A stretch of DNA of 64,000 nucleotides from contig JAALGZ010000016.1 in NCBI GenBank assembly GCA_015227615.1, positions 496,001 to 560,000 of the forward strand, in the 5' to 3' direction. A program made the translations under genes and the position numbers. The notes under the pieces are model-generated. The model made no database searches. It worked only from the letters and a program-made list of their open reading frames with translations, and was not told the origin of the DNA. Below are positions 21,801 through 60,344 of the stretch, piece by piece (position 1 is the first letter of the stretch; the number at the start of each line of letters is the position of its first letter). Source of the DNA: Labyrinthula sp. Ha (Eukaryota > Sar > Bigyra > Labyrinthulida > Labyrinthulaceae).

Positions 21801-24800
21801 CTAAAACACGTTCTCAAATAAATCAGCGGTAATTTCTATGGCAGTGCGTCCAGTAGTATGCATGCTTCCTGTCCTTCGCTCGACGACATCCTCTAGAAGA
21901 GATCTTCGTCTAACAGTTGGGGCATCCTCATTGTCAACGTGACTACCCAAGACATGAGCCTTAATATTACCATACTTGCTGATTAAATATGGCGCCAGAA
22001 AGAATCGAACCCAAAGCATTAAAGGTTCTGCGACAACATAGGTTATTATCAAACCCAACATCGCCGTAACGAAGCACGTATTGATCTCCTCAATTTCTAA
22101 GGATCTAATTTCCGCAACTTCAAGAAACGTAAACTCGTTTTCCTTCGCAATGTCTTGAAAGCGCCTTCTAATCCAGTCAATAATAAGAGCGGACACAAGA
22201 GCTATAATGACTCCAAGACCTATCCAGTTTACAAAAACAGTCCATGCTGGGAGTGCAGATGTTCTAGGTCGTGCTTTTAATGAAGCTTCATCCGCAAGTA
22301 GAGCAGCAAGTTTTGTCAGCATAGTCGGTTGGGCTTCAACAGCATATACTCTATATGCCTCATTAGTATAAAAGGCAACAGGAATATGACTTCTGTTTGT
22401 AGAACCAATGGACTCATTTTCTGCTTCTTCTGCTACTTGGACAGAGGCATTTTCAACGAAAGAAGCTCCGTTCTCTGTACGTGTATCATAAACGTCCCTT
22501 TTCCATGCATCTCTTGCTACTAGTGTCGCCTCAACAATCTCTACTTTAAGTGAGTCTAAGTCCTTGTCGGGATGAACAATTTCATGTTCTATTCGACCCT
22601 CAATATCATAAGGATTCCTTTGTGAATCAGGTGTCTGCGGTAGAGCGAGATCATACACTTCATCACCTAAATTATCCGTATTTGAAAGTCTATTTGAAGT
22701 AATAACGTACTGCGAATACAGATCAGAAAGGTTACTGTCACAGGGCAACATTCTACCATCACCATTTTCCAACCTATTAAGGATTCTTGACACGTTTGCG
22801 TTCATATCATTATATGAAGCCACATAGTTCTCTGTCAAACGAAACAAGAGCTTCACAACAATCTTTATTGGCACAGCACAGGTTAGCGTACAAAGAATGC
22901 TCACTACTATTATTTCATAAATCTTTAGTCTATCAGCAGAAAGAAGTACAAAAAATAGCGTAGTCACTGCCAATTCGGTCCATACTACAGCCAGAAAAAC
23001 AGACATTCTCTGCGTACGAGTATAGTTCGGATCATATTTTGATAAACTTAACAAAGAATGTTCGTACAAGAGAGCATTCTTAAAATTTCGCAATAACACA
23101 GTCAGTCTTATTTTCTCACGCTTGTCTGGAACCTCCAGTTCTTCTTGTTTTCTTGGCCCTCCTTCATTAAACGCCTCTTCAGGTACAGTATCTATATCTC
23201 GGTTCCTATCAAGACTCGTATTAAGATTCATATAGTTATTGGCTCTTTCTTTGAACATCCGTATAGCCAGACGTTGCTTCCGCTTCAAGATAAATCTGCG
23301 TAATGTCAAACAAGCTGTAGAAACTTCGAGACAGGTTTTACTATGTCCGCTGTCTAATGTTTTCGCCCAAAAGAACATAAGGACTGATATCAGAAAGAAT
23401 GCAGTAACGATCAAGGTAGAAATAGAGTTTGCTACAGCACTCTCACACTCAATACCTTCAAAAATTTCCCCTGTATCATCTCTCCAAGCTTTCCAAGTAG
23501 AAAATGATGATAGGTGGGAACATCGGCAAAATAGGAAACCTTCCCCCACCTGTGGGCTTTCAACCACTTCGCAACCCTCTTGGCTCCAATCTCCTAAGAT
23601 CTCATCATAAGCGCCACATGCATTCTTGTTTTCCTGAAGGATTCCACATGAATCTTTTCCGCTGTTGCCTTTGCAAAACTCCATACTATAATTAGCTTGC
23701 AGATCTACTTGCTCTTGTAGCACAAGTCTAATGATGGGCTGATCAGAAGATATAGAGAGACTGGGGGAGTTTCGAATAAGTGGGTGTATTTCAACCTGAA
23801 ATGTAGCCGCTATAGCAGTGATGCTTCCATCTACGGGACCTCCATATGAAAAGTTTGCAATACAAGTCTCATCAGGTATATTCTCCAGAACTCGGTCGCA
23901 CCTAACATTCTTTGCCCACTGAACAGTGTAAATGGAAATATCCTGTCCAGAGTCTTGCAACTGATCGGATACCACTTCCCCAATACCAGACTCAAAGAAA
24001 GCAGCAGTGGCAGTATTCGGGGGTTGCATTCGCTGCAAACCAGTGGGACTCCCTAGCACGCCAGCCGTTTCTATACCTGTTGAGAACATCACATTCGAAC
24101 TTTGGATATTGTAATTTGGCCCCCCTGGTACTGAAACACTATTAGACAATAACGCAACATCTGCAACCAAACTCTTTGACGAGATTACCGCACCGCAGAC
24201 ATCAGGTGCTTGTTGTAACTTTCTTGCAGTATAACTTTCGTTTTCATTGCGGTTAACAGAATCCAACAAGGAAACCGAATTAGAAAATGACTGCACCAAG
24301 AACTCACGCAGGAAGTTATCTGATAGTTCAGGAGCACTTACAACGCGGTTTCCTATTCTCCCACTTTCAATTAAATTGAGAGCTTCTGAGGTTATTTGGG
24401 GCAAGGTATTCAAAAAAGCATTTGTATATTCGGATGATGTTGAATAAACCAGATTCGTCAAGGCTGAGACTGCAGAGCTAAAGGAGGTCAAGGTGTTGAA
24501 TGATGTTTTCTCTAGTTCCACAGTAGCAGAGAACGCTTCCTCTAATGCAGTTAGACAAACATCGCGAGCCAGCGGCTGAATTTCAGTCTGTGAGACCTCC
24601 TGATCATTCAAGAAACTGGCCACGACATCTGACAGGTAGGAGACTTTCTCTGGGAAACCAGAAGCAAAATGTATGTTTATTTCTTGCCTCAAGATATCAA
24701 TAATAGCATCTGTGCCCTCAATAGAAGAAAAAGGATTCGAAACTAAGCTGGTATCCAGTCTAAAAGCACTTCCACTGATACGAGCAGATACAGCTCCAAG

Positions 24801-27758
24801 AGAGTCTCTAGCCCGTGCAAATATAATCAGACTAAATCCAGGGTTTGTTATTGGAAAGGTCGTCTCTAGAGTACTGCTAAGGGAAAATGAAGATACTGGA
24901 GCAACTTGAGGATGATCAAATACATTGCCCAAACCTGAAAAGAACTCATCCGCAACAGAATCTTCCACTATCGCGTACTCAAAGGCGTACGTTAGATCCA
25001 AGTTCCGTTCTGGATCTACCCAGTTCGTTGTTGAAAAAGATGCTGTGGGGAGGAAACCACTTCCTTCCAAAATCGCAACTGAGGTTATCCCCCCAACCGG
25101 AGCGGAGTTTATTGTTGTTGCAACCTCAACGTATGTTTCAAACAAGGATCCTTCACAAGGATACGAAAGAGTTAGTCTAAACACGTATTTCGTACCACCA
25201 AAAAGGAACCGCGAGGGCACATAGAGAGACCCCCTGTTGGTGACAACCTCTGAATCAGCAAGGATGGCTTCAGCTAAAAGCTCATCTTCAACAGAGAGCT
25301 GATTAGCCGTCCATTTTATGTTCAAGGCTAAGTTACTCAAATCGACGCCAGCAAAAGATGAGGAAATTATTAAGTCCACAGGGTTAGAAACTTCTGGTAT
25401 TGTGTTAATAGAGGGTTGTAGGAAATCGCAACCAGCAGTTTCAATAGCATTAACCGTGATATCTTCACTGATTAGTACTTGTTGAGAATCATCTCTTACC
25501 AAACTTAGTTTCAAGCGGTAGATCTCATCAACAACAGCGTTCGAGATTTCAGGTCTCAGCGGATTCTCCTCCGGATCTATGATTAGATTGCAATTAACGC
25601 ACTCCCAAATGAATGAAAAGGAATTATCAAAACCTAGGTCAACAGGACCCAAACTCTCATTAAGAGTACCCAAGTACCCAAATTTGGCATCACAGAGACC
25701 ACGTCCGAGTACCACTGGGTTACACGAGCCTTGAGCAGAAATGTAAGATGGACCAATGTTACCTATGCTGACCGTGCTTGCAGCAAAACTTAAAACTGGT
25801 GGTGGCTCAATTAGAGTGAATGAACGATTCTTAGTGTATGTAACGTTGTTTGGGAACGCAATGTATATCGAAACACTATAATTTCCAGCTCCAAGCACTT
25901 CTGGACTAAGCACAAACTGGCTGGATGTCACCAGTTGCCTGCGTTCCTCACTCAGGTTCCAAGAGTACTGAACCAATTGCTCGCGACTTTCTTCAATGCC
26001 TTGCAATAAACAATTCCAAACGCTATCTATGATTGAAAGAGAAAACGTGACGCTATCAAGGTAAGATACAGGTCCTTGCGGCGACTGCTCTATGTCAAAA
26101 GGAGCTACATTAGAAACCGGGGTGTATCCAAGTCTTAGGATGAGACTGTCAAGTACTTCATTTGTATATGGATAAACTATATCAACAAAGATTTCAAATT
26201 CAAAACTACTAGAATCCAAAACATTTCTTTCGAAGGTACTTGACACTCCAGTTAGCTCTTTTAAGTCCAACAACCATGGCACAATAGAGCTTTGTTGTTT
26301 TAAATCTATCAATTCTTCCTGTATCAATAGTTTTGGTTTCATTGTCACCTCGTAGGATGAAGTACTACTCTCCCTCAGTTCTACAACTAGTCTGTCTTGG
26401 CACTTTGACAGTATTCCCGAAGGTGAGGCACTGAAACTAAAGTCTAGACTTTGTAAGAAATCAGGGTTAGATTCTATATACCCAAAAGCCTGTCCAATAC
26501 CTGAGGTTGCTAGTATTGGTATTGAGCTTAACAACTTCAGACCTATTATCGAGCCTGTGCCAAAGAATGGAATCAGATATTCAAAATTAACTCCTATACT
26601 GACTGCTGAGATGCTTAAGACAGAGCAGCGATATAATGCAGTTTCAATTACATTATTAGTTCCATTTGAATAATCAGTTTCTGATGGGTAAATTTCTAAA
26701 ATGTCTGTACAATATGTTGTAGAGATGTTTTCAGTTGTGACGGGTTTGTCAAACCCGAGCACCAGAGTATTTTCCACAAGACTAGCCTGAACGGGTCTAG
26801 GTGGCAACGTTACTGAAACTTGGTTTGCAGTAAACAGGTTTGTATTGAAAACAGAGTTAATATTATCAGTAACTTTAAACTGGGCTAGATTTGTTGCAGC
26901 AAGTTTCACTAGCCCAGCATCAGTGTGTTGGAAGAAAACAAAACTCTGAGGAAACTTAGAGTTGCTAAAAAAGTAGCAAACTGCCTCCTCAGAAAAAATA
27001 TAGTCAAAAAATATGCTGCATGTAAAATGAACACCCTCGACAGGCTGCACATTTTCAGAAAAGTGCAATGCTATGCTAAATGCAGTGTCAATGAACACAT
27101 CAACTAACTCAGGAAGATTATCCGCATTTTCATAAAGAGGTGATGAAGTTGGCAAAGAGGTGGGAAACTTTGTTTCAATTAACGTCGGAGATTCTGTTGG
27201 CTTAACAGTTGGGGATCCAGTAGGGGAAATTGTTGTTTGTTGCGAAGAAGGTGATTCATTTGGAGCACCTGTAGGTAAACTAGTGTTGTTATCAAAGGAA
27301 GGGGAGCTACTTGGTCGAAGCGTTGGGGAGTGAGTTGGCAGAATAGTTGGTTGAGGTGTTTCCATGAAACTAGGTGACTCAGTTGGAGTTCTTGTCGGTG
27401 ATCTAGTTGGGTTCCTAGTAGGAAAAAAAGTGTCCATAACTGTGGGCATAGGAGAAGGTGCACTTGTTGGGCCGAAGCTAGATGGAACGTGACTTGGTAC
27501 TAGCGTGGGAATTGTTGGTAGGAGAGTTGGTGACATTGTATCTTCATCAGTGCCTTCAGTAGGAGACAGTGTCGGCAAAGTTGTATCTTCTGGATCCCCC
27601 AAGAATTTGACGAGGTATATGTACAACAAGACAACCACCAAGAACAACAACACCAGCAATACGCAAAGTGACTTCGGTAAGGATTTCTCCTTTAATTTCT
27701 TTTCCTTCGACCTCTTCAGTGTCTTACGGTCTACAACTACAAGGAAGGTCTTCTTCAT
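21801..27758 (-). CDS. Polycystin-1-like REJ/GPS membrane protein with Pro-Thr stalk
   Basis: 1985 residues from the ATG at 27756-27758, single exon. In order: a basic cytoplasmic N-terminus; a membrane anchor (about 31-51); a Thr/Pro/Ser-rich stalk with repeated S-P-T / P-T motifs (about 61-208), likely heavily O-glycosylated; a large extracellular part with REJ-type features, for example W-V-D-P-E-R-N-L-D-L-T-Y and R-A-R-D-S-L-G-A-V-S; then a GPS-type motif C-R-C-S-H-L-S-S-F near residue 1410, where GAIN-domain proteins self-cleave after H-L. After the GPS come about five to six transmembrane segments (about 1440-1462, 1586-1606, 1612-1637, 1841-1862, 1891-1928) with long cytoplasmic loops. 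This matches the polycystin-1 / sea-urchin REJ receptor plan, although I see no PLAT domain. It is likely a surface adhesion or mechano/fusion receptor; the role is inferred. Confidence 0.85.
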   Translation of the reverse strand: MKKTFLVVVDRKTLKRSKEKKLKEKSLPKSLCVLLVLLFLVVVLLYIYLVKFLGDPEDTTLPTLSPTEGTDEDTMSPTLLPTIPTLVPSHVPSSFGPTSAPSPMPTVMDTFFPTRNPTRSPTRTPTESPSFMETPQPTILPTHSPTLRPSSSPSFDNNTSLPTGAPNESPSSQQTTISPTGSPTVKPTESPTLIETKFPTSLPTSSPLYENADNLPELVDVFIDTAFSIALHFSENVQPVEGVHFTCSIFFDYIFSEEAVCYFFSNSKFPQSFVFFQHTDAGLVKLAATNLAQFKVTDNINSVFNTNLFTANQVSVTLPPRPVQASLVENTLVLGFDKPVTTENISTTYCTDILEIYPSETDYSNGTNNVIETALYRCSVLSISAVSIGVNFEYLIPFFGTGSIIGLKLLSSIPILATSGIGQAFGYIESNPDFLQSLDFSFSASPSGILSKCQDRLVVELRESSTSSYEVTMKPKLLIQEELIDLKQQSSIVPWLLDLKELTGVSSTFERNVLDSSSFEFEIFVDIVYPYTNEVLDSLILRLGYTPVSNVAPFDIEQSPQGPVSYLDSVTFSLSIIDSVWNCLLQGIEESREQLVQYSWNLSEERRQLVTSSQFVLSPEVLGAGNYSVSIYIAFPNNVTYTKNRSFTLIEPPPVLSFAASTVSIGNIGPSYISAQGSCNPVVLGRGLCDAKFGYLGTLNESLGPVDLGFDNSFSFIWECVNCNLIIDPEENPLRPEISNAVVDEIYRLKLSLVRDDSQQVLISEDITVNAIETAGCDFLQPSINTIPEVSNPVDLIISSSFAGVDLSNLALNIKWTANQLSVEDELLAEAILADSEVVTNRGSLYVPSRFLFGGTKYVFRLTLSYPCEGSLFETYVEVATTINSAPVGGITSVAILEGSGFLPTASFSTTNWVDPERNLDLTYAFEYAIVEDSVADEFFSGLGNVFDHPQVAPVSSFSLSSTLETTFPITNPGFSLIIFARARDSLGAVSARISGSAFRLDTSLVSNPFSSIEGTDAIIDILRQEINIHFASGFPEKVSYLSDVVASFLNDQEVSQTEIQPLARDVCLTALEEAFSATVELEKTSFNTLTSFSSAVSALTNLVYSTSSEYTNAFLNTLPQITSEALNLIESGRIGNRVVSAPELSDNFLREFLVQSFSNSVSLLDSVNRNENESYTARKLQQAPDVCGAVISSKSLVADVALLSNSVSVPGGPNYNIQSSNVMFSTGIETAGVLGSPTGLQRMQPPNTATAAFFESGIGEVVSDQLQDSGQDISIYTVQWAKNVRCDRVLENIPDETCIANFSYGGPVDGSITAIAATFQVEIHPLIRNSPSLSISSDQPIIRLVLQEQVDLQANYSMEFCKGNSGKDSCGILQENKNACGAYDEILGDWSQEGCEVVESPQVGEGFLFCRCSHLSSFSTWKAWRDDTGEIFEGIECESAVANSISTLIVTAFFLISVLMFFWAKTLDSGHSKTCLEVSTACLTLRRFILKRKQRLAIRMFKERANNYMNLNTSLDRNRDIDTVPEEAFNEGGPRKQEELEVPDKREKIRLTVLLRNFKNALLYEHSLLSLSKYDPNYTRTQRMSVFLAVVWTELAVTTLFFVLLSADRLKIYEIIVVSILCTLTCAVPIKIVVKLLFRLTENYVASYNDMNANVSRILNRLENGDGRMLPCDSNLSDLYSQYVITSNRLSNTDNLGDEVYDLALPQTPDSQRNPYDIEGRIEHEIVHPDKDLDSLKVEIVEATLVARDAWKRDVYDTRTENGASFVENASVQVAEEAENESIGSTNRSHIPVAFYTNEAYRVYAVEAQPTMLTKLAALLADEASLKARPRTSALPAWTVFVNWIGLGVIIALVSALIIDWIRRRFQDIAKENEFTFLEVAEIRSLEIEEINTCFVTAMLGLIITYVVAEPLMLWVRFFLAPYLISKYGNIKAHVLGSHVDNEDAPTVRRRSLLEDVVERRTGSMHTTGRTAIEITADLFENVF

Positions 27759-30700
27759 TCTCTTGTTTGAAGGTTTGCTCTCTGTCCAAATTGAACGCAA
27801 AAATTACAGACTTCAAACTTAGTAGGAAGAGCTAGCTACACAGTTCTATTTTTTCTTGTTATTATTGTCATGGGAGTCGGTCGCATGGCCCCGGAATATT
27901 TTCATGACAGACTTTCTTCATTTCATCGTCTTTCTAGTTAACTTCATTAACGGCTACGAATCAGCAAGATACATTATTCTGGGCATCATTTTTAAATGGT
28001 AGGAAAATGTAATCCCGAAAATGTTGTAAAAATATTATTATTTGTATAATAGTATTGTTTATCAATATAATGAGGATTTATTGCTAGACTTTAATACATT
28101 ATATTCAAAAAGAAATTTTATTAAAGAAAGTATAACAATAGATTCTTGTTATATGGATAGGCTTTCCTTTAGTTGTATATGTTGTTCAGGATTTTCATTG
28201 TAGTAGTGCATTAAGGTTTGATAAAGAAGCAATGTTTAGAACTATACACTGTTCTCTTCACAAACTGAAGCATAAATGAATACTTTTTAGTTACCGCTTA
28301 TCCTTTTCTAGCCTTCAAACAAGAACTATTTACTTAGTCCGTAGAAGGTACTGCATCTCACTCATTTGCAGTTTTGATTAACTAAATGCAAAACTACTAG
28401 CTCTTTGCTTTTCTAAATTAGATTTAGAAACGTAGAGTTATCAATACTAAAACTATAGTCTAAGCTAAATCTAAACGACTTAGCTACAGTGTCATATCTT
28501 GTCATAGCACAAATTCTGGGGTTGACTATAACATGCGGCGTTGGAACCTCACGAAATGAAAAGATAAAATATTTTAAGCTTACTTACACCAGGCAATAAT
28601 TATTCAGCTTTGACTCCTGAGAAGATGAGTTGGCCTAGTCCTCAGTTGACACCTACCTACTTAAATTTACAGTACAACCAATACAATGGAAGAATAGTTG
28701 ACTAATTTATTATTCAAGCGATGTGCCCTGAGAAAACGAAAATGTTCACAAGCTTATGAATCTACTCTTGTCCGCTACCTTTCCCGAGCCATAATATAAC
28801 TTTTTCAGTGTCGTTTCTTGCTGTGGGTAATTGCAGAAACGTTTTGCTTGGATATAAAGCTTTCAAAGGTGAATGCAGGAACTGTGCAAACAATGAAACA
28901 ACTAGAGCCATATTCTCGCCATCGGTTTTTTTAATTATGGTTTTGTATGTTGCAATTGAAAGCAGCCAATTTTCTATATATCCCATGTGGCGCAGAATCT
29001 TAGGCAGGTTTGATCATCGTTGCACTACCTTCTAAATTTCTAAGATCAGTAGTGCCTTTGAACTGAATGCTCATATCTTAAACCTATTTCTTTCAGGAAA
29101 ATTTGGTCAGTGTACCCATGGTACTAGAAATCCTTAATCAATCCCCTCTTTAACATAAGACTTAATAGCCTGCACTTGTGGCTTCGAGTGCATTAAAATA
29201 TAATAATCGACGGGTCACTACATTTTTATAATATAAGAGCATCTTAACTTGGTCTGTGGTGTCCAAATAATTCGATTCACGCTTGGAGATCCTCAATAGT
29301 TTTGGATCATCAATATTTTTGGAATTTTTTTGAAGAACTTTTTCAGTATAACTCTTGTGAGAAAATTTTTAGCCCTGTTCAAACTTGCTGAGTCTATTTT
29401 AGAAATTAAAAAAAATATTATTGATCAAGACGTGTTGAAGTGATAGGTCTATTCTTAGCCTCACTCAAACCTAGAGCATGTTTAGAGTGTTTTATGCGTT
29501 TCTTTATTTGGTAACTTACTGAAACATTTCTTATGTAATAAAATTGATCCTTTAACTACTATCAATGCCTTCTCAACTTCCTCAAGGAGTTGAGAGATAT
29601 CCCAAAATGACTTAAAATATGTAAATACAGACTGCTGACATTTTTCAGCAATAAGCATCTGTATGCAGACAATAATTAACTGGGGTCCAAGTTTCTAACT
29701 TGAAACATTCAGTTTATTGCAATTAGATAAAGCGAAAATATTGGGTTAGGAAACACTAACTATATGCCTAGGTAGCTAATCACGAAAATCCTTATTATTC
29801 TCTCATGAACATAGCATTATGGCATATGAATTCTAAATCCTTACCCTAGATGAAATCTCAAACAATAAGGCAACAATCAAGCTGCGGTCAACGAACTCTA
29901 TCCGTGACCAGAAGCAGTTACTAATGGCTTCTTAATTTTTTATTTTTTTTAACTAATAAAATTTCCAGGTTACTTAAGTGGAGACACAATATCCGAGTAA
30001 CAACAAACATGCTATTCGGAATTATTATATGTTCTCAGCAAGTTAACATTTTTTAACATTGCAGTTTGTGATAACTTTCTGAGTTTGAGAAAGAAATCAT
30101 GGGAATTTCTCTTCTGGTTGACCTCATTTTCAAGATCGAGCTACTACCATATGACAGTTCTCTGGTAAATCTAAGAATAAAGTTTTAGCCTCATATTTAT
30201 TCTCGAATCAGTTTTCAAGAGAATTCTATAGCTTAGAAAACCATATTACTTTTAATATCTTTCTGTTTTTCACACAAAAATCTCCTTATTACTTGGTATG
30301 TATGCTCTGTAATCAAAGGAATGATATCTCATGTTGGCAATAGAAATAAGATGAAGTGATCTTATGAAGCTTTCAAACCACTTCTGTCATGCAAACTCTG
30401 TTTCAACTTTCTCTAGATACCACCTTAATCTCCCTAGGTAGATTATGTGCTTGTATACCACATGGCAACAGGAACTATTTTAAACCAAACAGTTTATCTT
30501 TTGAGAACATATTGTCGATAGTATGAGCGGAGATGTGAATTTGTTTTTTTCGTGCAATCAAGGTTTATTAGATTTTTTATTTGATACAATGTTCTATATC
30601 GATATAAGAGAATCATCCTGCCTCTTGGTACAATGTGTTAATCTTGGCACAGACACATACAATTCTTATCAGAAAATAATTAAGGTAAAGCTAACCTGCC

Positions 30701-39957: not shown

Positions 39958-40878
39958 TTATTCGTATTTATATTTCGCTCTGAACTCTTCATAAGAAGTA
40001 TATCCATACTTCTCTTCAATAAGATCTTTCCAAGTCTTTGCAATCAACTCTTTCACAACATCTGGAATCATTTTCCCGTCTCCAGTCTTTCCAGATCTTA
40101 CTAATTTAGCACCAGCGCCTTCAAACGTCTTTCTTGCTTCTGGAATATTTTCAAGTGCTCTTCTCATAATCTCTTTATGTGTAAACTTTTCTTTATGCTC
40201 TTTCATAAACTCAAGAGAAGACATTCTTTCTGCTGTATCGCAACGTTTGTTAAACTCTTCTTCGGGAAGTTTACCTAAACCCATAAATCTAGCTATTTTT
40301 TCAATATTTTCTCTCGGTTTTTCTTTCATATCTTCATAAAAAAGAAAAAGAATATTTTCTGGGTTCTTTTTTGCAGCTTCAATATATGAAACAATATGAT
40401 CAATTGGAAGTCCAAATATACCACTATCTTCATAAATTAACTTCCCAAAGGCTTCCATTGAACAAGTTGACGTATTCGCTATTGGAGAAGTAAGCATAAA
40501 GTGATATAAAGAAACAAAAGCATCCTTTGGTTCTCTAGTAACAGCAATATATTTTCCTCCTTTAGCTATAGATTCATAAGTATCATGACTTTTGAATACT
40601 CTTGGGTTATATTTCTGTTCGTCATTTAAGTCTTGACCTACATCATGGGCCACAACATCCCAAGGAGTTTCTAAAATAAGGTCTTTGAAATCCATATCTC
40701 CATTTGAGCGCAACATATGACAGATTTGTAACGTCCAGGTCGTACCGCATTTTCCAGCAGTCGCTACAAAGACATCATCGTCCCTTGGTTTGAAAGTTCT
40801 GCCCAATTCTATTGACTTAGGAGTGAAAAACCCATCCATTCGGGCTTTCGCTTCTGCAAGTACCTCTTCAGTATCCAT
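39958..40878 (-). CDS. Cytosolic-type sulfotransferase, copy 1
   Basis: 306 residues, ATG start, single exon. It transfers sulfate from PAPS to a hydroxyl or amine of a small acceptor. The PAPS-binding elements are visible: the 5'-phosphosulfate loop G-K-C-G-T-T-W (42-48), the 3'-phosphate site R-E-P-K-D-A-F-V-S (115-123), and R-S-G-K-T-G near 265 matching the R-x-G-x-x-G motif. H98 in F-K-S-H is placed like the catalytic histidine of SULT enzymes. There is no signal peptide or membrane anchor, so it is probably soluble and cytosolic. A close paralogue lies 19 kb away on the same strand (59424-60344), about 82% identical in protein by eye. An LTR retrotransposon begins 171 bp upstream of the start codon, within the likely promoter. 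The acceptor is unknown. Confidence 0.93.
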   Translation of the reverse strand: MDTEEVLAEAKARMDGFFTPKSIELGRTFKPRDDDVFVATAGKCGTTWTLQICHMLRSNGDMDFKDLILETPWDVVAHDVGQDLNDEQKYNPRVFKSHDTYESIAKGGKYIAVTREPKDAFVSLYHFMLTSPIANTSTCSMEAFGKLIYEDSGIFGLPIDHIVSYIEAAKKNPENILFLFYEDMKEKPRENIEKIARFMGLGKLPEEEFNKRCDTAERMSSLEFMKEHKEKFTHKEIMRRALENIPEARKTFEGAGAKLVRSGKTGDGKMIPDVVKELIAKTWKDLIEEKYGYTSYEEFRAKYKYE

Positions 40879-41043: not shown

Positions 41044-41048
41044 AACGG
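41044..41048. repeat. Target-site duplication, left copy
   Basis: AACGG immediately before the 5' LTR, repeated immediately after the 3' LTR. Five base pairs is the usual duplication length for Ty3-type integrases. This pairing also sets both LTRs to the same 478-bp length. Confidence 0.9.
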
Positions 41049-41526
41049 TGTTGGAAAAATATAAGTGAGTAGTTCGTTTTGTCGATATATAGATGGTAGG
41101 AGTCGAGAAGCTGATGTCCAATACCTATTTGGTGTTGAAAATTGGCAGTGTAGTCAAGATATGGGATTTTGCTTTTATTTATTTTATGCAACGATATTTC
41201 GCACTTGGAGTAATGCAATATGGTGATGTTTTGTAAACCCTAATAACTGATGACGTGGTTTGAAGTAAAATATAGTGGAGCTGGGAGGAAAATATACAGA
41301 CACTGTTGTCCTGGGCATAAAATCTGGTGAAGATGAAAGATGAGTGACGAACCACGGACCAGTAAGGAAGGGAGAAAGAAATATAAAAAAGTGATGATGA
41401 GTTTTTGAGTGGTCGAAAATAGTTTGGAGGGCAGAATTTAATATAAGTCAAGAAAAAGTAGAAGTTTGATTTAAATTCGCGAGAAGTTTAAGAGTTAATT
41501 AATTGAGTTTTAGAAAAGTACTCAAT
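41049..41526 (+). repeat. 5' LTR
   Basis: 478 bp, beginning TGTTGG and ending ACTCAAT. It aligns without gaps to 48377-48854. The end was set by the target duplication; the exact last one or two bases are ambiguous because the internal sequence also starts with AT. Confidence 0.92.
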
Positions 41527-41783
41527 ATTGGATCCAATATTCATAACAATAGTACGAATTTTATTATGAAGAGAAGTGAAATGCTGAATCAAGACCCACC
41601 TCTTACCAGATCTAAGGGTGGGGTAAATTTAAGAAGAGCTGTCACATCTGAGATTAGTCAACAGAACGTGATAATCCATGACGGTGATAACACAGACGAC
41701 CAAGAGAGAGAGAAGTAGAAGACATTGTTGAAAGGGAGGAGGCACCTCAAACCCCTCCTACCCCAAGCGGGGAAAGAGTCGCC

Positions 41784-43235
41784 TTGGACCAGATAACTGT
41801 ATCCAGGGAAAGTTGGAAGTCCATCCAGCAGAATTATGAGGATCTCCAACTTAAGATGAACACATTAATAAAGAGCCTGGGGTCCAGTATACCCCTAGAA
41901 AATAACAAACAAATAAAAAGAAACCTGTTTAAGAAGAAGCAAAGGAAGAGAAGATCAAGAAAGGTGAAAGAAGAAGTGTCGGAGAGTGAAGAAAGTTCGG
42001 AATCGTCATCTTTGTCCTCACCAGAGTCGCAATATAGTGATGGCGAGGAGGAGAGGTTAAAAGAGAGTGAGAAAAATAGAGCCAGAGAGGAGAAATATAA
42101 AGGGAAACCTATTCTCCACTCGCTAGATCCAGGTAAAGTGTCTGTATTTCTTGAAGAGCTTGAAGTATATGAAGAGAATGTTGTAAAAGGAAGATTGAGG
42201 TTGCCAAGTGCTGACATTGTCTTGTGTGTAAATAACAATGTGCAAGTCATGTTGACAGAGGAGGGAGTAAATCTGATGAGCAGAAAGAATGTGATAAAAT
42301 ACTTGACCAAGATCAGAGAACTACAAAATAAAGGAAAAGAGAAGATACTCATGCGTAGGGTTGAGGCGCTAACATGGACCAACGAAGGAACTCCAATGAA
42401 ATCCATGGGCAAGTTCTTGAAAGAGATAACCGAAACGACAAGGGGAGTGAAGTGGGAGACCAGGTCGATGGAGAAGGAGTTTTGTTGCAAGGCCATCAAA
42501 AAACTTCCTTTTGAGTTCGGTTCCATAAAGGCTAAAGAAACTCAAAGTATTAAGAAGTGGAAGTCGATACCAAAGTTGAAGAGAGAGCTAACCCAAGCAG
42601 CAATTGTAATTTCAGAATGGGATTTACAAAGTCCCGCTCTGAAGCTGCTAACGGGGGAGCTGAGTGCAAAGAGACCTAAGAACATAACAAAGAGTGAAGA
42701 AAAATCCTTAAATAATCCGAGGGGTTCAAGAAGCGAAGAAGCGGGACCGGAGAAGGTATCAAAGTCCACGTTGGACAATGGAGCTGTCAGGCACCATATG
42801 CCCCGGTCGTGGTCCAAGGAAAAGAGGAAACAATATGGTACGGACCATAACTTGTGCCTCTTTTGCTACGCCACCAACCACCGCTTCGAGAATTGTGAGT
42901 TAGTTAAGAAGAGGGATGCTGATCGGAAACAGACGGTGAACGAAATGAGGGTATCGCAGGAAGGAGGTGAAATAGATGAAGGAGAAGAAGAGGAACAAAG
43001 TGATGGAGAAGAATCTGTATTTGTGGGAGTGATCGAGGTCCTAGATGTAGAGGAAGATGTATTAAGTGAGGAAGAAGAAGGAGTGATAGGGTCTATGAAT
43101 CCAGTTGATCTAGGCGAGATGCTAGTTGAAGAAGAGTTTGAGGTCGGTAGAGATGTTGGAAAGTCGCATGTAGATGACCCAAAGGTGCAAGAATACCTAA
43201 GAAATAAAATAAAAAGAAAGTGCTTGGGAGTTTAG
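41784..43235 (+). mobile_element. Gag-like region of the LTR element
   Basis: An open stretch of about 480 codons. The first third is highly charged (Lys/Arg/Glu/Ser-rich). A C-x2-C-x4-H-x4-C zinc knuckle (C-L-F-C...H...C) lies near codon 360, typical of nucleocapsid, followed by an acidic tail. The true start is unclear, since the open frame has no ATG at its left end. No protease motif occurs between the knuckle and the reverse transcriptase, unlike the usual Ty3 order. Confidence 0.8.
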
Positions 43236-44200
43236 AAGGCCAAATAATTGATGAGAAGCAAGCCAAGGAACTGGAGAGCATCCTGGTAGAGCATATTGAT
43301 GCCTTTGGTTCTAAAATTGCAAAGTGCGATTTTAATTCTCTAACGCCTATGAAAATAGAATTAAAAGAAGGAGTCACCGAATATGTGAGTAAGCCATATC
43401 CCATGTCCAAGGTGAACATGGAAGCGCTGAAAGCAAAGTTGAGGGAACTTGAGGATATGGGTATGATCCGTAGGGAGCCCAATCCTTTCTTTTCCTCGGC
43501 GGTAATTATGGTTCCAAAACCCGGCAAGAAAGATGAGTTCCGGATGGTTGTTGATCTGCGAAGATGCAATCGGTCCGTGAAAGCAACAGGAGTAGATGTA
43601 CCAGATTTGGAGACGCAACTGGCCTGGTTCAGCGGGTCGGAAAAATACTTCGGCAGCTTTGACGGACTTAGTGGCTTTGACTACCTAAGAATAGAAGAAG
43701 GAGCGGAAAAATACCTGGGTATGGTAACCTCCTGAGGTTGCTACACCATTCTCATGGCTCCACAAGGATATGTTAATACCCCTCAAATATATCAAGAACG
43801 GGTAATAAACGAAGTGTTGGGAGGAGTGTCGAGTGATAGTATGTTTGAAAACGGGGTTCTTCAGTGGATAGACGATTCGCTCCTATATTCATCAGCATGG
43901 GAGGAATACAAAAATACCCTGGGGAACTTTCTTTCGAGGTGCATAAATAAGAATTTTCGATTGAATCTGGATAAATGCGACTTGATATGTAGGCAGGTTG
44001 CATGGTGCGGAAGGATCATTAGTGACGGTAGTTGGAGGTATGATGATAAGTATTTTGTGAAGTTGTCAAATGTAGGGTTGGTGAGAAAGATGGGTCAGTT
44101 GGAGGACTTGGTGTACGTAAGTACCTGGTTGTCTTCTAGCGTTCCTGATCTGGCAAAAAGCGGCATTATTTGGGCGAAAAAAAATGAAAACTCTTGAGAA
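43220..44200 (+). mobile_element. Reverse transcriptase region of the LTR element
   Basis: Ty3-type RT motifs are visible: V-P-K-P-G-K-K-D-E-F-R-M-V-V-D-L-R, then S-F-D-G-L-S-G-F-D-Y, and the catalytic box W-I-D-D-S-L-L-Y-S. The region follows the gag-like frame with a small overlap in another frame, an arrangement Ty3 relatives use for programmed frameshifting. It is part of a broken element and treated as a fossil. Confidence 0.88.
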
Positions 44201-45206
44201 GAAGCTAAAAGATAAATACAAGAAGAAAATGAACAAACACCAGAGTCGGGCAGCTTCGATTGAAGAATGGTGGGAGGACAGTGATCAAAAGGAGGTGACC
44301 AGGTTTATGGATTCCATTTCGGTTTGTTCTCAGCGCAGCCTAAAATTATATCAGAAAGAAAATAAGATTGCCCTGTTCACCGATGTCAGCTTCCAGTTTT
44401 GGTCAGGAGTACTAAGTTTGTGGGATAATGATGGTTGGTTGCCGAAATGCTTCGGAAGCGGAGAATTTGTTGGAAGCAGTATACATTGGAGCATGACGGA
44501 TAAAGAGTTATATCCCATCATTAAGCTCATGAAACGATACCGGTTTATTTTATTCAGTCAACTGCTTCCAATAAATCTCTATACTGATCACAAGAATTTA
44601 ACGTATTTGATGACCCCTAAGAAGGATATGAAAACTGCCACGTTCGGTAGAGTTCAACGCTGGATCCTTACCATGCAAGAATTCGATGTCATCATTCATC
44701 ACCTATCGGGTGAGCGAAATGTTTTGGCAGATCTTCTTATCCGATGGGGGTACGTGGAATCCAAGGAGACAGTGGAGTTAAAGGAGAAGTTGGTGGATAG
44801 TAATGAGGATGTAGGTTGGAGGATATGTTGGAAGGGCATCACATTCTTTGCCAACTTTAGAGATGTAAATATAGAAAAGAGAGAGATACGGAGTATGATC
44901 CAGACAAGCGACAGGGAGGAAATATTGGAGATACAAGAGGAAGGAGGAAAAGGATGGAGATTTGACCCAGAATTGGTGAAATTTGTAAGAGACAGAGTAG
45001 CAGTGCATTTTCCTAATAGAAAATATAAATACAAAATGATCACCTTGGTAGAAGTTAATAGATTCCAGGGTGAATTTGTCCAGGAGTGGAAGGATATGAA
45101 GCTTAAAAAGAATGCGAAGGGGTCGTGGGTAGATGATGCTGGTAGGATTGTGTTGCCTCAGATTATGGTGAAAAGGTTTGTAGTCACTGCTCATAACGCT
45201 TCATGA
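44184..45206 (+). mobile_element. RNase H region of the LTR element
   Basis: Ty3-type RNase H signatures: A-L-F-T-D-V-S (first Asp), M-T-D-K-E-L-Y-P-I-I (Glu) and N-L-Y-T-D-H-K-N-L (second Asp), then H-H-L-S-G-E-R-N-V-L-A-D, the classic end of the domain. The linker toward integrase occupies the rest. Confidence 0.88.
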
Positions 45207-46380
45207 CATGGTAGTGTGGATGAGGTTTTACGCATACTTGAACCTTTTTTCTTTGTTGGGGTTCCTAAAAGTAAACAGAAAATATTAGTACAAAATTTAA
45301 AGAGGTGGTGTCTACATTGCGACAAAGATGTGAAGATGATAAGAAGACCTTTACGTGAGACATACCATCCAGTTGAAGGAGAAGTTGTACTGTACATGGA
45401 TTTCTTGAAGGTAAAAGACTCCTACATCCTGGTCATCCTAGAAGATATATCAAGAAAAATATTGCTTATCGAGGATCCAAGCCCATGTGCAGCTGTAGTG
45501 GTAAAAGTACTGGTAACTTGGTGAGGAATTATTGGTCTGCCTGCTAGATTTGTTTTAGTCTCTGATAATGGATCGCATTTCAATAATGAGGTTATGAGAC
45601 AATTTGAGTCTAGATTTCCATCTGAGCATAAGTTATCAATTGTGTACAGCCCATGGAGCAACGGTTCGATTGAAATCATGGACCGATTTGTGCTAAGGGT
45701 GTTAAGACAATTATGTAGCTGCTATATGTTGGATAAGGATAAGTAGAGGGAAGTACTACCCCAAGTAATGGACGTAATAAATAATAGCAAATCCACGCAC
45801 GGTTTTTCTCCCAATGAACTAACGTCATATTTGGCTAAGGCTAAGGGGTTGCATGTGTTGAGTTCGGATAAAGGTGGAGATGTATTGCCAATGGTAATCC
45901 AAGGAAAGTTGAGGGAGTGTAAGAATCCAGTAAAATTCAAGGAAGCCGTCGATAAATTGTTGGAGATCATTTTGAGTAGGAGGAATAAATTAGAGCCAGT
46001 TATAAAAGAAAGCAGAGATATATCAAGAAGATACACAAACAAGAAGTTCCGATCATCCAAGGTTAACTTTGCCCCAGGTGACTTCATTCTAGTCTCTAGA
46101 ATAGGTACCCCATGGTTATGTGATAGGATAAGCCATAGGTGGATTGGTCCATAGTTAGTAGTTGGAGTAGAGGGTGAGCATTGTTATAAAGCGAAGAGTT
46201 TGGAAGGAAAGTTGAAGGTTGTTCATTCTCAGAGAATAACTTTATACCAGTCTGGGCCAGAAGATTTTAAGATATCTTCTGAAGTCAAGCACAGCTTCTA
46301 TTATAACCAAGGTCCATATCGAGGGAATAAATTCATAGATCTAAGAAGCATAGTTGACAGGCTTGAGTTGCTTGTTTGGT
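45207..46380 (+). mobile_element. Integrase region of the LTR element
   Basis: The retroviral-type integrase core is recognisable: Y-M-D-F-L (first Asp), V-S-D-N-G-S-H-F-N (second Asp) and S-N-G-S-I-E (Glu), in the expected order. A C-terminal F-A-P-G-D-F-I-L-V-S patch resembles the small beta-barrel tail of gypsy integrases. This region is visibly degraded. Confidence 0.82.
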
Positions 46381-47068
46381 AGAAAGGGTTCCCCAAAAGC
46401 GATGCAAACTGGCAAAGCTTTGCAAGGCTATATGAGGATGTCCCAAAGTTGGTGAAGAAATACATCATCAGTAGAAGTAATGATAGTGTAGAATTCGAGA
46501 AGGCGAGTAGATTGATCTAGGAGTAGGAGAGTAGTGGGGAATTTAGGGAGGTTAATGTTGTGGAAGAGACAGTGAGCAGAGTTCCTAGAAACACGTGGCT
46601 AAAAGGTAGATATAAAATAGTGAAATACCCAGCTAGAATGCGAGCCGTGGACGAAGGAATCGTTGGAAACTTGAGCAGGGCAAAGGGGTAGTCAGATAAG
46701 GAGAAGAAGATATTTGAAAGTTTGAATATGATGTTTGGAATCGGGTGTTGGGGGAAGATATGTGGGGTTGGGTGTTTGCCAGGAAAGACCAAGTCACAGA
46801 TGGTCACACTTCTTCAAGTAGAATTAGCCAGCCAATCAATCGGGGAATGTTCGGGGTTGAAGGTACCATTTAGGTATATTAAGGAGTTTAATGATAAAAG
46901 ATATGGTGTATTTAGAAGAGGAGGAATGATCGTTAGTAGAGGGAGAGAGAGGAATATAGAGGAGGCGAATAAAGAGAGGGAGTTGGTAAGGAGGCAGTTT
47001 GATAGTCATCAAGTCGAAGGAGTGGTGGAAATACCAGTGTTAGAATTTGAAGAGATCTTGAACCCAAG
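46381..47068 (+). mobile_element. Unassigned stretch between integrase and protease-like region
   Basis: About 690 bp inside the element. It contains charged, Gly/Arg-rich short frames (for example 46722-47078) with no family I recognise. It may be element-specific coding sequence linked to the unusual downstream protease and methyltransferase. Confidence 0.5.
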
Positions 47069-47533
47069 TTGTCTTTAGCTGATTTGAAGTCCATGATACA
47101 TTTTACTGAAGAATCTCCTAAAAACAAGAAATATAATAAAATAGTTAACCACTTTGAAGAACGTGAGCCAGGTAGTTGTCATCCAAGAGAATATTTTAAA
47201 GCTAAAGTGGGAGACAATTGGCACAGAGTTTTGTTAGATAGTGGCGCAGGAATAAGTTGCATTGGGCAAAATATGATACCTAAAGACCAGATCCAGGCGG
47301 ATGGGGAAAAGATGGAAAGTCTGAGGGGAGTGTATGGTGTTAGTGGGGAAAAGTTGCATGTTTTGGGGTATGTGGAAAAGGAAGTAAGGCTGATCCATCC
47401 ATTGTATAAATATGATCTGGGGAAAGTGTGTTTGTATGTGTTAGGGAGAGACACGAATAATATCATTATCGGGGAAAAGATGTTAAGGCGGTTCAAGTTG
47501 ATGCAGAGGATGTTTTGTTTGGTCGTGGATTAG
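47069..47533 (+). mobile_element. Retropepsin-like aspartic protease region, downstream of integrase
   Basis: Contains V-L-L-D-S-G-A-G-I-S-C-I, the active-site signature of retroviral-type aspartic proteases, and later I-I-I-G-E-K-M-L-R-R-F, the usual closing motif (I-I/L-G-x-x-x-L). It lies after the integrase rather than between gag and RT, which is unusual for Ty3-type elements. Confidence 0.8.
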
Positions 47534-47733
47534 GCGGCGATGTTAAAATATGTAATGTAGAGGAAGATGCTAGAACCAGATGTTTGGAATAGTGGAAGGG
47601 GGTGTATGTAGAGGAGGTGGATAGTAGAAAGAGTAGGGATGAGTACGGGAAGCTGTTTGATAAGTATCTGAAGGAAAGTGGATATGAGGTAGAAGGTGAT
47701 AAGGTATGAGAATCGGCTGATCATTTAATAAGA

Positions 47734-48330
47734 GTGAGAGATTTGGAGAAAGTTGGAGAAGAATATTTTGTGGTCTGGAAGCAGCCTACAAGTAGCAGAT
47801 ACATGGTGGCTAATCTGTTCAAACTAAATTCGAAAATTGTAGGATGTTTTGACGTCGTATTGTTAGATCCAGCTTGGAGAGATGATGTTTCCAATAACCC
47901 AACATGCGGTTTAAATATCTCATATCAAACGCTAAACATAGAAGAAATAAAAAGGATACCAGTTCCTGAAATTTGTACGAAAGGAGTTATAGCCTTATGG
48001 GTAACCAACTCTAAGGTGCAAGAAGGGATGGACATTTTAAAACACTGGGGAGCTAAATTGGTGGAGGTGTTAGTTTGGGTAAAGAGAACGAGGAGTGGGA
48101 AGCTTTGGAATTCTCACGGTCCATATGTGAGACATAATAAGGAAATTTTGTTATTGGCTGTGAAAGGAAGACCATTGCTAGCTCGATCCAGAAGCGATGA
48201 TGTAATAGTCAGCAGACTAAGGCAGCAGAGCAGAAAACTAGACGAATTGTATCAAATACTTGAGAGACTTGATCCTGGAGCCAGATATTTGGAAATGTTT
48301 GGGAGAAGGTGGAATTGCAGAGAGGGGTGA
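47734..48330 (+). mobile_element. MT-A70-family adenine methyltransferase encoded by the LTR element
   Basis: A 198-codon open frame ending 46 bp before the 3' LTR, so inside the element. Recognisable MT-A70 features in order: F-D-V-V-L-L-D-P-A-W (catalytic D-P-x-W block, about 39-48), S-Y-Q-T-L-N-I-E-E-I, I-P-V-P-E, A-L-W-V-T-N, V-W-V-K-R, R-H-N-K-E-I-L-L-L-A-V-K-G, S-R-K-L-D-E-L-Y (about 165-172) and P-G-A-R-Y-L-E-M-F-G-R-R. The family N6-methylates adenine in RNA (METTL3, Ime4) or DNA (METTL4 and relatives, phage and bacterial members), using S-adenosylmethionine. The layout is nearer to compact METTL4/prokaryotic forms than to full METTL3. The start is uncertain because the open frame begins without an ATG. 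The domain is secure; RNA or DNA as target is undecided. Confidence 0.9.
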
Positions 48331-48376
48331 AATACGATAGATTTGGATGTTTCATACAGCTTTTAAAAGAAAGCAG

Positions 48377-48854
48377 TGTTAAAAAAATATAAGTGAGTAG
48401 TTAGTTTTGTCGATATATAGATGGTATTAGTCGAGAAGCTGATGTCCAATACCTATTTGGTGTTGAAAATTGGCAGTGTAGTCAAGATATGGGATTTTGC
48501 TTTTATTTATTTTATGCAACGATATTTCGCACTTGGAGTAATGCAATATGGTGATGTTTTGTAAACCCTAATAACTGATGACGTGGTTTGAAGTAAAATA
48601 TAGTGGAGCTGGGAGGGAAATATACGGACACTGTTTTCCTGGGAATAAAATCTGGTGAAAATGAAAGATGAGTGACGAACCACGGACCAGTAAGGAAGGG
48701 AGAAAGAAATATAAAAAAGTTATGATGAGTTTTTGAGTGGTCGAAAATAGTTTGGAGGGCAGGATTTAATATAAGTCAAGAAAAAGTAGAAGTTTGATTT
48801 AAATTCGCGAGATGTTTAAGAGTTAATTAATTGAGTTTTAGAAAAGTACTCAAT
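48377..48854 (+). repeat. 3' LTR
   Basis: 478 bp, beginning TGTTAA and ending ACTCAAT, preceded by a purine-rich tract. About 13 mismatches and no gaps relative to 41049-41526. Confidence 0.93.
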
Positions 48855-48859
48855 AACGG
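48855..48859. repeat. Target-site duplication, right copy
   Basis: AACGG directly after the 3' LTR, matching the copy at 41044-41048. Confidence 0.9.
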
Positions 48860-59423: not shown

Positions 59424-60344
59424 CTAATTAGTTCTGTATTTCGCTCTAAACTCTTCATACGATGTATATCCATATTTCTTTTGAACAAGTTCTTCCCATG
59501 CGTCAGAAATCAACTGTTTTACCGAATCAGGAATCATCTCTCCTTCTCCACTTTTTCCTGATCTTACTAACTTACCTCCTGCTCCTTGGAAATTTGCCTT
59601 CAACTCTGGGTTCTTACTAAGTACTCTCATCATAACTTCTTTATGTGAAAACTGTTCTTTATGCTCTTTCATAAACTCAAGAGAAGACATTCTTTCTGCT
59701 GTATCGCAACGTTTCTTAAACTCTTCTTCCGGAAGTTCACCTAAACCCATAAATTTAGCTATTTTTTCAATATTTTCTCTCGGTTTTTCTTTCATATCTT
59801 CATAAAAAAGAAAAAGAACATTTTCTGGATTCTTTCTTGCAGCTTCCATATATGAAACAATATGATCAATTGGAAGCGCAAAGATACCAGGATCCTTATA
59901 CAAGGTTTTACCAAAGGCTTCCATTGAACAAGTTGACGGATTTGCTACTGGAGAAGTAAGCATAAAGTGATATAAAGAAACAAAAGCATCTTTTGGTTCT
60001 CTAGTAACAGCAATATATTTTCCTCCTTTAGCTATTGTTTCATAAGTATCATGACTTTTGAATACTCTTGGATTATATTTCTGTTCGTCATTTAAGTCTT
60101 GACCTACATCATGGGCCATAACATCCCAAGGAGTTTCTAGAAGAATGTCTTTAAAGTCTGTGTCTCCATTTGAGCGCAACATATGACAGATTTGCAAGGT
60201 CCAGGTTGTTCCGCATTTTCCAGCAGTCGCTACGAAGACATCATCGTCCCTTGGCTTGAAAGTTCTGCCCAATTCTATTGACTTAGGACTGAAGATTCCA
60301 TCTAGTCTAGCTCTAACTACTGCAAGTACTTCTTTTGAATCCAT
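59424..60344 (-). CDS. Cytosolic-type sulfotransferase, copy 2
   Basis: 306 residues, ATG start, single exon, same length as copy 1 at 39958-40878. All PAPS-binding elements are kept: G-K-C-G-T-T-W (42-48), R-E-P-K-D-A-F-V-S (115-123), R-S-G-K-S-G near 265, and the catalytic-type H98. By eye about 55 of 306 residues differ from copy 1. The changes crowd into the first 20 and last 90 residues, while residues 20-220 are about 90% identical. Both copies therefore look functional, and the divergent C-terminal part may shift acceptor preference. Soluble PAPS-dependent transfer of sulfate in the cytosol is inferred from the family. Both copies lie on the same strand, consistent with an original tandem duplication later spread apart by insertions. 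Confidence 0.93.
   Translation of the reverse strand: MDSKEVLAVVRARLDGIFSPKSIELGRTFKPRDDDVFVATAGKCGTTWTLQICHMLRSNGDTDFKDILLETPWDVMAHDVGQDLNDEQKYNPRVFKSHDTYETIAKGGKYIAVTREPKDAFVSLYHFMLTSPVANPSTCSMEAFGKTLYKDPGIFALPIDHIVSYMEAARKNPENVLFLFYEDMKEKPRENIEKIAKFMGLGELPEEEFKKRCDTAERMSSLEFMKEHKEQFSHKEVMMRVLSKNPELKANFQGAGGKLVRSGKSGEGEMIPDSVKQLISDAWEELVQKKYGYTSYEEFRAKYRTN

Follow-up and report, generated by a model that had tools for sequence, protein, structure and literature searches.

Chromoviruses, the Ty3/Gypsy elements with a chromodomain, are bounded by long terminal repeats (LTRs) and encode reverse transcriptase (RT), RNase H and integrase followed by the chromodomain. The capture of a methyltransferase by a retroelement is a known kind of event, since in Symbiodinium (hundreds of elements) and charophytes a cytosine (C5) DNA methyltransferase (DNMT) is carried in the coding region of retrotransposons, with self-methylation of new DNA proposed there (PMC5890265), and since DIRS elements, which have a tyrosine recombinase, include some whose adenine methyltransferase is of a bacterial, Dam-like type (cited in PMC5890265 and PMC6338049). 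N6-methyladenine (6mA) in eukaryotic DNA was long disputed and is now linked to AMT1 and to active genes (PMC12695648); AMT1 (MTA1) belongs to a complex with AMT7 (MTA9), p1 (AMTP1) and p2 (AMTP2) (PMC9852454, PMC12695648). Here we describe a 7.8-kb Ty3-type LTR element at positions 41049-48854 of a 64,000-nucleotide stretch ("the window") of Labyrinthula sp. Ha contig JAALGZ010000016.1 (assembly GCA_015227615.1; 50.8 Mb in 153 contigs), which carries an MT-A70 adenine methyltransferase domain. Judging from its relatives in this genome, we consider it probable that chromodomain retrotransposons captured an AMT1/p1-like module in the distant past, that selection has kept it, and that its most likely use is to methylate the new DNA of the element itself.

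The Labyrinthula elements share their LTRs and domain order with chromoviruses, but have an extra C-terminal p1-like domain and MT-A70 domain and, in one branch, a protease located after the integrase. They differ from the Symbiodinium and charophyte elements in that their enzyme is of the MT-A70 adenine type, structurally unrelated to the C5 enzymes, and is accompanied by the p1-like domain; the first-pass annotation of the window had already judged this capture to be distinct from the known cytosine ones, and we agree. We also considered the DIRS elements with a Dam-like enzyme and rejected them as a match, based on the LTRs, the target-site duplication, the DDE-type (rve) integrase and the PF05063 domain of the Labyrinthula elements. 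Compared with the AMT1 complex, to which both the catalytic domain (nearest AMT1) and the DNA-binding domain (nearest p1) point, the element has the two domains in one polyprotein and its catalytic motif varies among families; no MTA9-like part was seen in the element polyproteins. With regard to the class of retrotransposons with a captured DNA methyltransferase, the enzyme is within the polyprotein, is multicopy and is under selection, and its substrate is predicted to be DNA.

The MT-A70 domain of the window element lies in an open reading frame (ORF) at 47734-48330 (plus strand, 198 amino acids) with a match to PF05063 at an E-value of 4.7e-34 (118 bits; cut-off 23.9). Since this E-value is accompanied by the fact that all 150 MT-A70 matches scored in the genome passed the Pfam cut-off, the window match is more than chance. 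As the first-pass annotation had it, the frame is situated between a retroviral-type aspartic protease (47069-47533, plus strand; RVP E-value 1e-5), 3' of the integrase, and the 3' LTR (48377-48854, plus strand). The matching LTRs and target duplication that it reported were also borne out: the 5' LTR (41049-41526, plus strand, 478 bp, beginning TGTTGG) is 97.3% identical to the 3' LTR across 480 bp (blastn), and the element is flanked on both outer sides by AACGG (41044-41048 and 48855-48859), with ACGGT, one base on, being an equal reading of the sequence. The copy is decayed, however, and its being functional is not supported: its domains are spread over three frames, there is a stop in the Myb-like domain, and a stop ends the MT-A70 domain approximately 14 residues short of the ends of its relatives, one TGA being listed inside the match. 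The GTG "start" of the ORF is simply what comes after an upstream stop. Based on the three frames and the stops, we regard this frame as a leftover polyprotein domain and not as a separately initiated gene. The earlier description of an open frame carried as cargo was correct in placing it inside the element, but the corresponding sequence in relatives forms the C-terminal end of a polyprotein and is not an independent gene.

To describe the better-kept copies we used 20 loci (up to 10 kb each) that were chosen from MT-A70 matches, mostly in long frames; the presence of MT-A70 in them thus reflects the selection of loci, which also favored intact copies. Of the 20 loci, 18 had a pair of LTRs, with identities of 93.5-100% and matched stretches of 124 to 700 bp; target duplication was checked in the window element only. 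In 17 of these 18 loci the end of the polyprotein frame is no more than 65 bp from the 3' repeat or, in L020, slightly overlaps it; in the remaining locus, L018, the frame stops 371 bp short. Among the 24 loci with MT-A70 (the window and L009-L031), a script found 17 in which RT through the last residue of MT-A70 is a single open frame; of these, L029 and L030 were read from within RNase H, where those loci begin. Three others (L018, L021, and L024) have their sole stops at the frame end, and the broken loci are the window, L010, L017, and L031. In the relatives of the window copy, a single long polyprotein carries MT-A70 at its C-terminus, and the domain order in the better-kept copies is RT-RNase H-integrase-chromodomain-Myb-MT-A70, ending beside the 3' LTR. 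Pfam searches of eight polyproteins found RVT_1, RT_RNaseH, rve, Chromo, and a C-terminal MT-A70 in all eight, with the cut-off passed by Chromo in five and by rve in two, while Pfam Myb was matched in two of the eight at an E-value of 0.001, under its cut-off. The Ty3/Gypsy-type label is based on the LTRs, target duplication, and domain order; our RT tree was built with these elements only.

The position of the protease varies between copies. By motif it is located between the Myb-like and MT-A70 domains in L009-L017, L019, and L020. The motif precedes RT in L018, L022-L024, and L026; by Pfam it is before RT in L021 and after integrase in the window copy. In the other loci no protease was found by motif. 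The branch to which the window element belongs has a rearranged pol order, with the protease after the integrase and between the Myb-like and MT-A70 domains, and in another branch it precedes RT.

A genome-wide search with the MT-A70 Pfam profile gave 354 first-look candidates, of which 150 were scored, and the Ty3-type RNase H profile gave 379 candidates, of which 150 were likewise scored; the element copy numbers are lower bounds. There is no internal stop in 124 of the 150 scored MT-A70 matches, 53 are in open frames of more than 1000 amino acids and 33 in frames of more than 1700. A scored Ty3 RNase H is present on the same strand within 6 kb upstream of 72 of the 150 MT-A70 matches, which upholds the view that the domain is element cargo and not a neighboring host gene. 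Viewed from the other side, 71 of the 150 RNase H matches are followed on their own strand by a scored MT-A70 no more than 6 kb downstream, at a distance of 2.5-3.2 kb in 70 cases; the other RNase H/MT-A70 neighbors were one on the opposite strand and two upstream on the same strand. We rejected the possibility of a host gene beside the element, as the MT-A70 domain is enclosed by the LTRs and, in the majority of loci read, shares an open frame with RT. The genome-wide search for further MT-A70-bearing elements that the first-pass annotation had proposed succeeded, and the frame is not confined to a single copy. Three pairs of near-identical MT-A70 matches are 6.8-7.2 kb apart on one strand (C132:835172/842412, C62:563456/570271, and C1:1636119/1643108, all in G000), as if elements were in tandem with a common LTR.

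Of the RNase H matches, 79 had no scored MT-A70, and from these we chose six Ty3 loci by RNase H alone. Two of them (L029 and L030) do carry an MT-A70 that had not been scored, one (L031) has an MT-A70 that is either decayed or divergent, and no MT-A70 was present in the other three. These three (L032-L034), from other Ty3 lineages, have neither a Myb-like nor an MT-A70 match in the approximately 4 kb downstream, indicating that the cargo marks one lineage and not every Ty3 element. L031 (G000 C117:27700-32200, minus strand) has a chromodomain, a Myb-like domain, and an MT-A70 with DLSG in place of DPPW, either through decay or as a catalytically dead, partner-like version.

For analyses of selection we sampled 68 MT-A70 domains, of which 61, with the host gene described below and the window copy among them, were uninterrupted over at least 150 of the 210 profile positions. 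Left out of the 68 were L017, which has an internal stop, and L001, L002, and L004, which are the same copies as L009-L011. Thirty-four of the 61 were taken from unflanked slices, each about 0.68 kb long, and their element-borne status was deduced from their grouping and the RNase H pairing. The 83 pairs with a synonymous distance (dS) of 0.03-1.2 have a median ratio of nonsynonymous to synonymous distance (dN/dS) of 0.145, with none reaching 1; one of these pairs is the host gene versus an element and is to be set aside. For the window copy against L009, dN/dS is 0.09 at a dS of 0.81. Codon models of five families, which together hold 40 of the 61 domains, gave omega values of 0.114 (the family of the window copy, 13 rows), 0.100 (11 rows), 0.045 (7), 0.047 (4), and 0.088 (5), and were 148-294 log units better than models with omega at 1, a comparison in which kappa was also held at 2. 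These values answer the question of selection across copies raised at first pass: selection is purifying in all five families, and neutral decay is excluded for the lineage.

The MT-A70 domain is under strong purifying selection, which in two close pairs is as strong as that on RT. In L013 versus L015, dN/dS was 0.046 for MT-A70, 0.051 for RT-RNase H, 0.083 for integrase, 0.095 for gag, 0.098 for the Myb-like domain, and 0.154 for the stretch from Myb to MT-A70; in L014 versus L015 the corresponding values were 0.066, 0.058, 0.064, 0.093, 0.087, and 0.235. In six older pairs dS was saturated in nearly every segment. In the five of the older pairs in which the preceding stretch was measurable, the dN of MT-A70 was under that of this stretch. 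Across the older pairs the dN of MT-A70 was 0.9-2.2 times that of RT-RNase H, being highest in L018/L021, L025/L028, and L022/L026. Trees of RT and of MT-A70 from 21 elements recovered the same families, with a difference in the deepest order (L023 and L027). The low omega values and the matching RT and MT-A70 families indicate that the lineage has had the module for a long time, with a constraint near that of a core enzyme, and the 100% identity of the L015 LTRs indicates recent movement of the lineage. One capture or several may lie behind the deep groups of element MT-A70.

These results bear on the simplest alternative, that a piece of a host MT-A70 gene was caught once and has since been hitch-hiking or decaying. 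The decayed window copy is what such an event would leave, but the 61 uninterrupted domains of 68, omega values of 0.045-0.114, and the same families in RT and MT-A70 are not, and we rejected a one-off capture with decay for the lineage as a whole, giving this explanation hardly any credence.

By profile score, the element MT-A70 resembles the DNA methyltransferase AMT1 more than it does METTL3. A profile of 19 domains searched against the PDB scored 219 bits with Tetrahymena AMT1, 149 with METTL3, 93 with METTL14, 65 with 7cv6, which we take to be METTL4, and 52 with MTA9. The window domain itself, with its shortened C-terminus, scored 119 bits with AMT1 and 95 with METTL3, and a model of it was set against MTA1c. 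In phmmer searches with 22 references the best match was AMT1 for 57 of the 61 domains (the host gene being among the 61) and METTL3 for four, which does not support METTL3 as the nearest family. AMT6/7 were in the PDB comparison only, as PDB chains, and AMT2/5 was represented by one sequence in the phmmer and tree sets. L027, whose branch is the longest of any element in the trees, scored 82 with AMT1 and 31 with METTL3, and the arginine of the AMT1 P-x-R-G stretch, which is missing in METTL3, is present in 58 of the 61 domains.

An RNA substrate is the reading that METTL3 kinship would suggest: N6-methyladenosine (m6A) on the element RNA would alter its stability, packaging, or sensing in a METTL3-like manner. 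The superfamily and fold are common to METTL3, four of the 61 domains had METTL3 as best match, 15 of the 61 were no nearer to AMT1 when compared by plain identity, and an origin on the METTL3 side is compatible with the deep MT-A70 tree. However, the AMT1 preference in the other 57 domains, in the profile, and in L027, along with a companion domain similar to p1, itself part of a DNA enzyme, make an RNA substrate improbable in our estimation.

The MT-A70 tree, with few named references, showed no grouping of the elements with prokaryotic-type rows, and its deep order is not firm. A single clade of AMT1 plus the elements was not rejected by the approximately unbiased (AU) test (p 0.188), which was set up after an earlier tree had been inspected. 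All 33 element rows were split (support 96/98) from 17 rows taken as prokaryotic, of which only P0053 and P0076 bear bacterial names, and a bacterial origin of the captured domain was rejected based on this separation from prokaryotic-type rows. Phage families include strong homologs (phrog_359 at 2.3e-32 for the window MT-A70), and the tree was built without phage rows. The alignment search also returned P0010, from an ENA contig, an MT-A70 protein with a ZZ finger, as in the AMT2/5 arrangement.

The companion domain points in the same direction. A profile of 11 Myb-like domains searched against the whole PDB had as its best match p1 (AMTP1) of the Tetrahymena AMT1 complex (E-value 3e-21, 78 bits, 81 positions), followed by SNAPC4 (8e-11) and c-Myb (4e-8), whose matches end near position 83 while that of p1 extends to 110. 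With single Myb-like domains as queries, p1 was the sole PDB match at an E-value of 0.1 or less (L009, 2.6e-14; L018, 2.2e-5). Our own Myb-like profile matched all 24 loci with MT-A70 and none of the three Ty3 loci without it. A single DNA-methylation complex is thus indicated by two separate domains of the polyprotein, and the p1-like domain beside an AMT1-like MT-A70 is our strongest reason for favoring DNA over RNA as the substrate. Based on these similarities, the two domains probably act together; p1 and MTA9 are described as aiding DNA binding (PMC9852454).

Among the 61 domains, D209 and K280 are each conserved in 59, R357 in 58, and N360 in 52, and for the DPPW motif the counts are 59 for D, 59 for the first P, 47 for the second P (A in 13), and 55 for W. 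A reason for caution is the family of the window element, which reads DPAW, a variant fixed in its 13 sampled copies and under selection; either the motif still works or the fold serves pairing or targeting. A reading that favors targeting over chemistry would have the chromodomain, the p1-like domain, and the MT-A70 fold dock the integration complex at promoters of the 6mA/H3K4me3 type, perhaps via host AMT1/AMT7, with an MT-A70 that is weak or inactive in some families, as are METTL14 and MTA9. The location of the chromodomain and p1-like domain behind the integrase fits this, as does the fact that the window element is inserted on the upstream side of a sulfotransferase gene, approximately 170 bp from its start codon (a single case), and DPAW being kept at an omega of 0.114 means that conservation needs no perfect DPPW. 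On the other hand, the catalytic aspartate and the S-adenosylmethionine contacts R357 and N360 are retained at the frequencies given above, whereas the inactive partner MTA9 has an eroded motif, NALW (PMC9852454). We think docking as the main use unlikely, though less so than an RNA substrate. From the sequence comparisons, our expectation remains an active methyltransferase whose substrate would be DNA, specifically that of the element, and whose effect would be permissive.

The host itself likely has a 6mA pathway, as one of the 150 scored MT-A70 matches appears to be an ordinary host AMT1-like gene. This is a 327-amino-acid frame (L008:1027-2004; G000 C91:220767-221270) with 55.6% identity to Tetrahymena AMT1 in its MT-A70 domain, and no RT, integrase, or Myb match was found in the 3.5 kb of that locus. 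A 2025 survey describes robust 6mA where AMT1 is present, located downstream of transcription starts and going with transcription in the eukaryotes surveyed, and mentions a suggestion that AMT1 binds hemimethylated ApT (PMC12695648). New complementary DNA (cDNA) is without 6mA, so with such a preference the host enzyme may not restore the mark alone.

A possible course of events, then, begins with a Ty3-type chromodomain lineage that would have captured a p1/AMTP1-like domain and an AMT1-like MT-A70 at the polyprotein C-terminus long ago, the module being retained by purifying selection while the lineage divided into several families. The protease would release the C-terminal module, and the p1-like and MT-A70 domains would jointly act on DNA, writing 6mA on the cDNA of the element or on its fresh insertion. 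Since 6mA marks transcribed chromatin in eukaryotes with AMT1, the new copy might pass as an active gene, and host AMT1 may then maintain the mark. An alternative with the same enzyme activity is that 6mA on the cDNA shields it from host nucleases, editing, or silencing and does not promote transcription. The anatomy of the element also fits shielding, and shielding has been proposed for element-made methylation in the DNMT-carrying retrotransposons (PMC5890265), but 6mA accompanies transcription in surveyed eukaryotes (PMC12695648), and we rate shielding marginally below even the improbable RNA substrate. As to the permissive reading in its fullest form, a selfish element would have taken over an "active gene" mark by joining an integrase and chromodomain to a p1-type binder and an AMT1-type writer, with copies marked de novo at or before integration and subsequently by host AMT1; this we put forward tentatively, as somewhat short of an even prospect.

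The remaining parts of the window element, all on the plus strand, are as follows. The frame at 41784-43235, in which there is a CCHC zinc knuckle (CLFCYATNHRFENC), had no Pfam match over cut-off, and we name it as gag-like based on its position and the zinc knuckle. The interrupted RT part at 43286-44182 scored 418 bits with the RT-RNase H profile (stops as X), with an RVT_1 E-value of 2.2e-8 on 43754-44197, and the RNase H domain at 44187-44753 scored 205 bits with its profile (RT_RNaseH, 6.8e-17). The integrase domain at 45099-45947 is broken by stops and scored 333 bits with the integrase profile (stops as X); a chromodomain-like stretch at 46296-46466, also broken by stops, was read by comparison with L009 and L015 and has no score of its own in this copy. 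The p1/AMTP1-related Myb-like domain at 46596-46910, with its internal stop, scored 90 bits with the Myb-like profile, the closeness to p1 being taken from the PDB searches with the profile and single relatives. The window as a whole had no tRNA and no Rfam match. The sulfotransferase gene near the element is at 39958-40878 (minus strand), and a second of equal length is at 59424-60344. Other genes are a frame of receptor type in which an RGS domain and, weakly, a 7-transmembrane domain were matched (3269-4741), ribosomal protein L3 in one 387-amino-acid frame (6423-7586), and a long uninterrupted 1999-amino-acid frame with a GPS motif, also of receptor type (21801-27800).

Among the literature matches listed, no title or abstract opening described a retrotransposon or LTR element with an MT-A70/AMT1-like enzyme and a p1-like domain. 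In a protein collection that includes EukProt, one of 294 candidates was a polyprotein at the sensitivity of that search, and its 98% identity over the domain makes this organism, or a sister to it, the probable source. The MT-A70 families have been described as "relatively static" after their diversification (PMC12695648), and the many element-borne AMT1-like and p1-like domains of Labyrinthula would be a direct exception to that description. If the proposed use of the module is true, the element mark would be opposite in sign to cytosine methylation of the silencing kind, and the published picture of families relatively static since the last common eukaryotic ancestor would no longer hold. 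A natural p1-AMT1-like single polypeptide may clarify how the complex recognizes DNA. Furthermore, the presence of MT-A70-bearing and MT-A70-free Ty3 elements in the same genome constitutes a natural experiment on whether 6mA helps a transposon.
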